Source: a bacterium (GTDB lineage: Bacteria > Deinococcota > Deinococci > Deinococcales > Deinococcaceae). From it: a stretch of 64,000 bases of DNA. Below the pieces are notes generated by a model. The model worked only from the letters and a program-made list of their open reading frames with translations, was not told the DNA's origin and did not search any database. The position numbers and the translations under genes were made by a program. Every line of letters begins with the position of its first letter. Positions within the stretch are counted from its first letter, which is position 1. Shown here piece by piece: positions 2,436-4,091 of the stretch. The stretch is taken from contig JAJZIR010000009.1 of NCBI GenBank assembly GCA_021810505.1, positions 1-64,000 on the forward strand, read 5' to 3'.

Positions 2436-4091
2436 TCAGCTCAGGACCTCGAACCCCAGGCGGTCACCCTCTTCGACAAAAAATTCGATGTTTTCGAGCA
2501 GCGTTTGGCTGCCGAGCGAGCTCCTCGACCAAGCCTCGGTCAGCGCCAGTACGATCGTTTCCGCCAGGCAGGCCGGTACCAGACCCTCCCCGAAGCCTAG
2601 GTCGACGGTGCTGGTCGGATGTCCGGGTGGCCGGACCACGCCGCCCGGTACCACCCGTACCCCAGGGACTCGGTAGGCCGACGCATCCACGTCCAGCGGG
2701 CGCCCCTCATCGAAGATCCAGGTATTCGGGCTGAGGTGTTCCGCGAAGATGACCGGGTCGGGGTCACTGGTAGCCGTGAAGATCAGCCCCGCCTCCTTCA
2801 GGCGCGACAGGTCGTCGATCACCTCGATGGAGGTCGCTGGGCTGGCCTTCCGGAGCGCCTCGGCCAGACGGCCGAGGCGCTCCTTGTCGCGGGCAGCCAG
2901 CAGGAGTTTCCCCACCTGCGGCGCCAAGGTCCGGGCGATCCCGAAGGCCACCACCCCGGAAGCACCGACGACCGCCGCGGTCTCCGCCGCCAGAGACCGC
3001 TGCTCAGCCTGATAACGCCCGAGCAACTCGGATACGACTTTACGGATGGTCCCTGCGGTGTAGGCGCCGCCGTTGGTGATGCAGATACCGGGCGCCTGGC
3101 TCTGTACCTCCTGGCCTTTATTGGCCAGAGTGCTCCAGAGGGCGCCCAACCCGAGCACTCGGGCACCCAGCTCCTCGGCCAACCGGGCAGCCTGCACCGC
3201 GCGGCGCAGGATCAGCTCCGGCTGCGCTCTGAACACGTGGGGCAGCAAGGGCGAGCTGATCAGCAGGACCCGAACCCGCTGGCCGGCAGGGGTCTCCACG
3301 CCGCGCAGCTCTCCCAGCTTCATCGGGCGCAGCCAGCGGGTCATCCTGTCTAAGGCCGAGGGTTTGAGGAGGCCGGAGGCGACCAGCGGTCTGAGCCAGC
3401 GGATCCGCCGGGTCTGCCACAGGTCGGCGAAGTTCATGGGATGGATCAGGAAGGCCGCGGTGATCTCGCCGCTCTCTTGGGGCTCCGCCCAGACCCTAGG
3501 CTCCAGGCCGTCCAGGATACGCCCCAACTGTTCCTTGAACCTCCACACCACCAAGGCGGCCAGCAACCAGCTCGGCCAGGCAGCTGCGGCACCGGCTAGG
3601 GCCGTGAAGGCCAGGGGCTGCGACAGGGCGGCGAGAACGATGCCGAGGGACAAGTAACCGAAGATACCCAGCGCCAGGCAGAAGACGGCGGCTGGCCACA
3701 GCCACAGCGGGGCCGCCCAACCGGTAACCGCTTGAGCAACCAGCAGGCCGAGCAGCAGCCAGCCGCCTCGGCCGCGCACCTGGCGGTCCCATACTGGCAG
3801 AGGGGGATAGAGATGCCCCAGGTAGACCAGGACCGCGACCAACCCGGCCAGGGCCGACCCGGGAGGTACCCCCAAGGCGGCAGCCAGCGAGAGGGCCAAG
3901 AGAGCCTTGAATAGGTCGAGCAGCCCGGACAACAGCAGGGAAAACAGCCCAGCCTTGCGGATAGCGCCGGCCAGGCCCAGATTGTAGACCGATAAAGTTC
4001 TAGGGGGGCCTTTGGAGCTCAGCGCCCATAGGCCCAGAGGCAGCGCGCCGATCGCGTAGGCCAGCGGGATTGCGAGGAGGGCGAGCGGCAC
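2436..4091 (-). CDS. Fusion: PlsY-like membrane domain + acyl-ACP-reductase-like dehydrogenase
   Basis: A 551-residue fusion. Residues 1-200 are hydrophobic and follow the acyl-phosphate:glycerol-3-phosphate acyltransferase PlsY: VYNLGLAGAIRKAG (35-48) matches the SxNxGAxNxxR region, and GHLYPPLPVW (92-101) matches GHxFPxFxxF. The following GGKGVA motif is absent, so acyltransferase activity is doubtful. Residues 210-551 are soluble and resemble cyanobacterial long-chain acyl-ACP reductase (AAR): ITNGGAYTAGT (338-348), an NAD(P)-binding VVGASGVVAFGIAR (374-387), FDEGRPLDVD, VVPGGVVRPP, and VPACLAETIVLAL with Cys508 at the position of the AAR acyl-thioester cysteine. Inferred role: membrane-anchored reduction of a fatty-acyl donor to an aldehyde. 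A TACAAT element lies 7 nt before GTG 4091. Confidence 0.75.
   Translation of the reverse strand: MPLALLAIPLAYAIGALPLGLWALSSKGPPRTLSVYNLGLAGAIRKAGLFSLLLSGLLDLFKALLALSLAAALGVPPGSALAGLVAVLVYLGHLYPPLPVWDRQVRGRGGWLLLGLLVAQAVTGWAAPLWLWPAAVFCLALGIFGYLSLGIVLAALSQPLAFTALAGAAAAWPSWLLAALVVWRFKEQLGRILDGLEPRVWAEPQESGEITAAFLIHPMNFADLWQTRRIRWLRPLVASGLLKPSALDRMTRWLRPMKLGELRGVETPAGQRVRVLLISSPLLPHVFRAQPELILRRAVQAARLAEELGARVLGLGALWSTLANKGQEVQSQAPGICITNGGAYTAGTIRKVVSELLGRYQAEQRSLAAETAAVVGASGVVAFGIARTLAPQVGKLLLAARDKERLGRLAEALRKASPATSIEVIDDLSRLKEAGLIFTATSDPDPVIFAEHLSPNTWIFDEGRPLDVDASAYRVPGVRVVPGGVVRPPGHPTSTVDLGFGEGLVPACLAETIVLALTEAWSRSSLGSQTLLENIEFFVEEGDRLGFEVLS

Follow-up and report, generated by a model that had tools for sequence, protein, structure and literature searches.

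A PlsY-type membrane domain fused to a predicted fatty-acyl reductase throughout the Deinococcota, a possible source of their phosphoglycolipid alkylamine

A single gene of a Deinococcaceae genome was found to join, in one polypeptide chain, the fold of a PlsY-type lipid acyltransferase and the fold of a fatty-aldehyde enzyme, as judged from family profiles and a predicted structure. The gene lies in the window, a 64,000-nucleotide stretch of contig JAJZIR010000009.1 (GCA_021810505.1), and its reading frame there runs through 551 amino acids without internal stops (Table 1). The fusion is not private to the window: in sequence comparisons it is phylum-wide in the Deinococcota, where other PlsYs coexist with it, and a version with an intact acyltransferase site is present in the Armatimonadota. 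A preliminary description of this DNA had regarded the combination as undescribed, and our literature search likewise found no paper on a fusion of PlsY and acyl-ACP reductase (AAR). Elsewhere in the window, two similar phosphoribosyltransferase-like frames with PRPP-type motifs lie in tandem on the minus strand (339-884 and 905-1441), probably a duplication.

Table 1. Coordinates of the fused gene, its parts and the orphan protein (window positions unless a locus is named)
Feature	Position	Strand	Basis or remark
Whole fused gene	2436..4091	-	551 codons + stop, GTG start; orthologues span same length
PlsY-like integral membrane domain, residues 1-205	3477..4091	-	PF02660, E=3.4e-17; predicted fold Z 19.4 to 5xj7
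PlsY motif 1 equivalent, residues 34-45 (SVYNLGLAGAIR)	3957..3992	-	Motif roles from PMC5700162
PlsY motif 2 region, residues 93-111	3759..3815	-	His93 (=His92), Gly109 (=Gly105), Arg108 at Lys104
PlsY motif 3 region, residues 184-197	3501..3542	-	Phe185 at His177, Gln188 at Asn180
AAR/PigE-type acyl reductase domain (predicted), residues 206-551	2439..3476	-	Family profiles, structure alignment, predicted fold
His217 codon	3441..3443	-	Invariant in fused and free-standing homologues
Nucleotide-binding loop GASGVVAFG, residues 376-384	2940..2966	-	Loop sequence; PF01488 over residues 365-480
Cys508 codon, predicted acyl-thioester cysteine (=AAR Cys294)	2568..2570	-	Alignment to AAR
Orphan protein, example locus L243	8928-9833	-	
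Orphan protein, example locus G000 C5	39832-40722	+	Read as L267:7778-8767

The C-terminal domain is very probably a fatty-acyl reductase, a reading that draws on profile matches and on a structural model. In profile searches with the fused protein, the best family match was the reductase part of PigE (E=2.8e-21 over residues 255-535), and the AAR model TIGR04058 matched residues 265-550 (E=1.1e-9) with 38.1 bits against an equivalog cut-off of 449.7; scores fell far under the equivalog cut-offs of AAR and PigE alike. The PigE reductase-domain homology model NF053554 matched all 45 members (best 1.2e-32), and a shikimate-dehydrogenase Pfam family (PF01488) matched within the domain. Sequence matches in the PDB were to cyanobacterial AAR chains and to 4ppm, which is labelled an aminotransferase but is PigE; no aminotransferase domain was found in the fused protein by Pfam or family profiles. 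In the AlphaFold2 model built from 45 orthologues (pLDDT 91, pTM 0.87; confidence values here and for the orphan protein below are those of AlphaFold2 alone), residues 211-551 adopted the AAR fold with a Z-score of 32.5 over 320 amino acids (rmsd 3.4), against 15.7 and lower for the next folds outside the AAR, TAD and PlsY rows. The AAR-like domain and nucleotide loop of the preliminary description are thereby upheld, with a domain start nearer residues 206-211, and the profiles group the domain with AAR/PigE-type reductases and not with another dehydrogenase family.

Cys508 (in PACLAE), earlier proposed as the counterpart of the acyl-thioester cysteine of AAR, aligned on Cys294 of 6jzu (in FACFAE). 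Together with Glu511, His217 and the loop glycines, it was invariant in 86 of 86 aligned rows, which comprise 45 Deinococcota, 6 fused Armatimonadota and 35 free-standing Armatimonadota sequences from 83 distinct genomes (one genome is represented twice in each of three free-standing pairs). A chiefly regulatory role or a non-fatty substrate, with a Rossmann domain that is only a distant relative of AAR, is very improbable for the protein: the low AAR bit score and the shikimate-dehydrogenase match would fit such a role, but the gap in Z-score between AAR and other Rossmann enzymes, the invariant Cys, Glu and glycine loop, and the fusion to a lipid acyltransferase fold argue against it. Compared with cyanobacterial AAR (6jzu/6jzy), the domain has the same overall fold, catalytic cysteine position and nucleotide loop; however, the fusion is only ~22-24% identical, scores far below the family cut-off and carries a membrane PlsY domain. 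PigE and TamH share the reductase homology and the type of cysteine, and both of these known enzymes make aldehydes that are later aminated. Their reductases are fused to an aminotransferase, whereas here the fused domain is PlsY, and an aminotransferase, if one takes part, would be encoded separately.

The N-terminal PlsY domain of the preliminary description was confirmed by PF02660 (residues 10-192, 63.5 bits against a cut-off of 24.1) and by the predicted seven-helix membrane fold of residues 1-200, aligned over 187 amino acids. The likeness extends to the fold and less far into the site, where several substrate-binding residues depart from canonical PlsY, an acyl-phosphate:glycerol-3-phosphate acyltransferase (5xj5-5xj8). 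Residue roles were taken from the structure of the Aquifex enzyme, in which point changes at Ser35, Thr41 and His177 cost most of the activity (PMC5700162). Equivalents of His92 and the loop glycine Gly105 were kept in all 45 Deinococcota rows. In contrast, the Thr41 position was Glu in 44 of 45 (Ala in the window protein), and the canonical residue was retained at Ser35 in 3, at Arg45 in 33, at Lys104 in 6 (mostly replaced by Arg), at His177 in 7 (mostly Tyr, Phe or other residues) and at Asn180 in 28. In the Deinococcota, therefore, the acyl-phosphate pocket (His92, Thr41 and the Gly-rich loop) breaks down at Thr41, and the glycerol-3-phosphate site (Ser35, Arg45, Lys104, His177 and Asn180) is not preserved as a set. 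From these substitutions, the Deinococcota PlsY half is probably remodelled and unlike a normal glycerol-3-phosphate acyltransferase, and for that reason it probably binds or presents an acyl substrate. Each Deinococcota genome had 2-4 PF02660 matches, mostly 3-4, one of them a canonical PlsY. A second standalone PlsY-family set, without several canonical motif-3 residues, was also seen in Deinococcota (e.g., at loci L063, L065 and L067).

All six Armatimonadota fusions retained the equivalents of Ser35, Thr/Ser41, Asn42, Arg45, His92, Lys104, His177 and Asn180, and the fused copy was the only PF02660 match in those six genomes; a separate PlsY was present in all six free-standing-reductase Armatimonadota genomes checked. 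Because the site is complete and no other PlsY was detected there, the Armatimonadota fusion is probably truly bifunctional, a grading made from residue comparison. Carried over to the fusion as such, a bifunctional enzyme would acylate glycerol-3-phosphate with its PlsY half while the reductase shares the acyl pool, setting the split between phospholipid and aldehyde. The six Armatimonadota sites speak strongly for this, but in the Deinococcota, including the genome of the window, further PlsYs exist and the residues at Ser35, His177 and Thr41 are largely gone, and we consider it quite improbable as an explanation. Another reading, in which the remodelled pocket passes the acyl group of acyl-phosphate to Cys508 and not to glycerol-3-phosphate, would agree with an invariant His92 and loop glycine beside drifting glycerol-phosphate-binding residues. 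It appears rather improbable, however, as an acidic residue replaces Thr41, the binder of the acyl-phosphate carbonyl, and the free-standing reductases do without a PlsY half.

The fusion was matched in 61 of 61 and then in 111 of 111 Deinococcota genomes, nearly always at full length, with a few fragmented drafts giving only pieces or a weak match of PlsY strength; the 111 represent the phylum outside the genus Deinococcus, and absences in this set are weak evidence, given masked stretches and unfinished drafts. A chance joining or assembly artefact is ruled out by this distribution. When 84,980 named species genomes were scanned with an alignment, 69 loci were recovered, 68 of them in Deinococcota (Thermus and Meiothermus included) and one in an Armatimonadetes MAG (G111). 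The same scan with the single fused protein, whose exact peptides are diverged, for that reason returned zero matches, and a plasmid search with the fusion also gave none. Among 14 control genomes, the AAR model matched three: Thermus composti, Deinobacterium chartae (a match to the reductase model alone) and Synechococcus elongatus, the last of which has a true AAR.

In the Armatimonadota, 266 of 291 genomes matched. Six carried full fusions, and the remainder among the matches listed were free-standing reductases, mostly of ~355-440 amino acids. The latter, which fall in no curated family, have the same domain and the invariant Cys, His and Glu, but they are without the PlsY half, and a long branch sets their clade apart. 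All fused reductases grouped in one clade apart from them (support 100/100, branch 1.93) in a midpoint-rooted tree, which does not give a direction. Gene neighbourhoods of the fusion differed by family, with infC-rpmI-rplT upstream in Thermus-like genomes and prmA downstream in Trueperaceae; the neighbourhoods examined held neither lipid or aminotransferase genes nor any diol, alcohol or ether-lipid enzyme beside the fusion. In one Trueperaceae locus (L039:11061-14984), a DnaB helicase frame was observed to contain an intein bearing a LAGLIDADG domain.

Since the 1980s, Deinococcus has been known to contain an alkylamine phosphoglycolipid. In Thermus and Meiothermus, the glyceroyl-alkylamine phosphoglycolipid is the major phospholipid; it is related to the lipid of Deinococcus radiodurans and has been termed a chemical marker for the lineage (PMC3035268). 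In Oceanithermus the phosphoglycolipid was assigned by Rf (PMC3111992), and the lipids of Truepera were not compared with the marker lipid (PMC3072082). A 2022 paper says of the enzymes behind the third chain and the head group of the phosphoglycolipid that they "have not been identified" (PMC9636437). The alkyl chain in Thermus is iso-C17, equal in length to a main acyl chain (PMC3398001), which fits a conversion of acyl group to aldehyde to amine without loss of carbon. Precedent for this chemistry comes from TamH, which combines an AAR-type reductase with a class III aminotransferase and yields a C12 amine in vitro; together with TamA, it converts a C12 acid into the amine by way of acyl-ACP and the aldehyde, also in vitro (PMC9594044). 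In PigE, as in TamH, an aldehyde is made and then aminated (PMC8341465).

We tentatively propose that the Deinococcota fusion is a membrane-held acyl reductase whose aldehyde feeds the alkylamine of this signature lipid, a chain of steps that, taken whole, we rate close to evenly balanced and slightly on the doubtful side. In this scheme, whose activity, acyl donor, aminotransferase partner and lipid product we infer from sequence, structural models and analogy with TamH and PigE, a fatty acyl group, which may come from acyl-phosphate, acyl-ACP or acyl-CoA, would load onto Cys508 of the C-terminal domain, and NAD(P)H would reduce the bound thioester with release of a fatty aldehyde. The PlsY-derived domain would anchor the reductase to the membrane, at which acyl-phosphate and acyl-ACP are consumed. 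A class III aminotransferase may then transaminate the aldehyde to a long-chain alkylamine, which would be amide-linked to glyceric acid in the phosphoglycolipid.

Alkylamine is the leading candidate for the fate of the aldehyde because chemistry, chain length and distribution all fit it. The preliminary description had pointed to ether lipids, wax esters or alkanes; its reductase family and cysteine stand, and the product is better motivated here as an alkylamine. With the same reductase chemistry, the aldehyde could alternatively go to fatty alcohol, an ether lipid or long-chain 1,2-diols. Such 1,2-diols replace acyl-glycerol in some lipids of Thermus, Meiothermus and Truepera. Long-chain diols are reported as minor in Meiothermus (PMC3035268), and for Truepera a compound is reported whose chain length equals that of an iso-C18:0 1,2-diol (PMC3072082). 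A wider role would also suit the occurrence of the reductase in Armatimonadota. Nevertheless, we judge this fate unlikely, as diols are minor while every genome examined in the phylum matched the gene, and the enzymes expected for it were missing from the fusion neighbourhoods. The reductase is widespread and mostly unfused in Armatimonadota, for which our literature search found no report of alkylamine lipids, and so the family as a whole need not serve the alkylamine lipid.

For the amination step of the proposed alkylamine route, the genome of the window encodes a class III aminotransferase of 490 amino acids with an extra N-terminal segment (locus L146; G000 C18:23949-25418). Its nearest family was PigE, under every equivalog cut-off shown, and putative orthologues ~49-65% identical were found in three families. 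By sequence, this enzyme is a candidate for fatty-aldehyde amination. Thermus-like genomes have a shorter class III aminotransferase of PigE/putrescine type, and the Thermaceae candidate was only ~43-46% identical and about equally near LysJ. The candidate was seen in 90 of 111 Deinococcota genomes at E<=1e-60, in a set where some genomes have masked stretches. Frames of 1,920-2,093 amino acids around the aminotransferase in three Trueperaceae were rejected as fusions, being artefacts of runs of N.

A second conserved protein, an orphan of ~302 amino acids, is encoded immediately upstream of the free-standing reductase gene in 16 of the 32 Armatimonadota genomes examined (distinct genomes, by our own count) and was found in 106 of 111 Deinococcota genomes, where its gene precedes efp-accB-accC-asp23-nusB-folD in several families. 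It gave no significant match in Pfam or NCBIfam and no significant result in a sequence search of the PDB. Its predicted structure (pLDDT 88) had AAR as the best fold, with a Z-score of 14.5, while the first fold beyond the AAR/TAD group reached 10.0; this was obtained via re-ranking, AAR being missing from Foldseek's own top 50. Kinship with the reductase at the sequence level was unsupported (hhalign probability 0.45%), and the predicted fold alone hints at it. Judged by eye in the model, the conserved Asn of a TNVME motif seems to take the place of the cysteine, which we offer only as a suggestion. A more elaborate scheme, in which the rebuilt pocket (Thr41 to Glu) diverts acyl-phosphate, a committed phospholipid precursor, to the reductase to make the aldehyde for the alkylamine lipid, with this Cys-less, AAR-fold protein as a possible partner subunit, is speculative and distinctly improbable.

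The fusion thus occurs in two forms, one probably bifunctional in some Armatimonadota and one remodelled in the Deinococcota. For the latter phylum, it offers one concrete, phylum-wide candidate for the source of the fatty-amine chain of the phosphoglycolipid.
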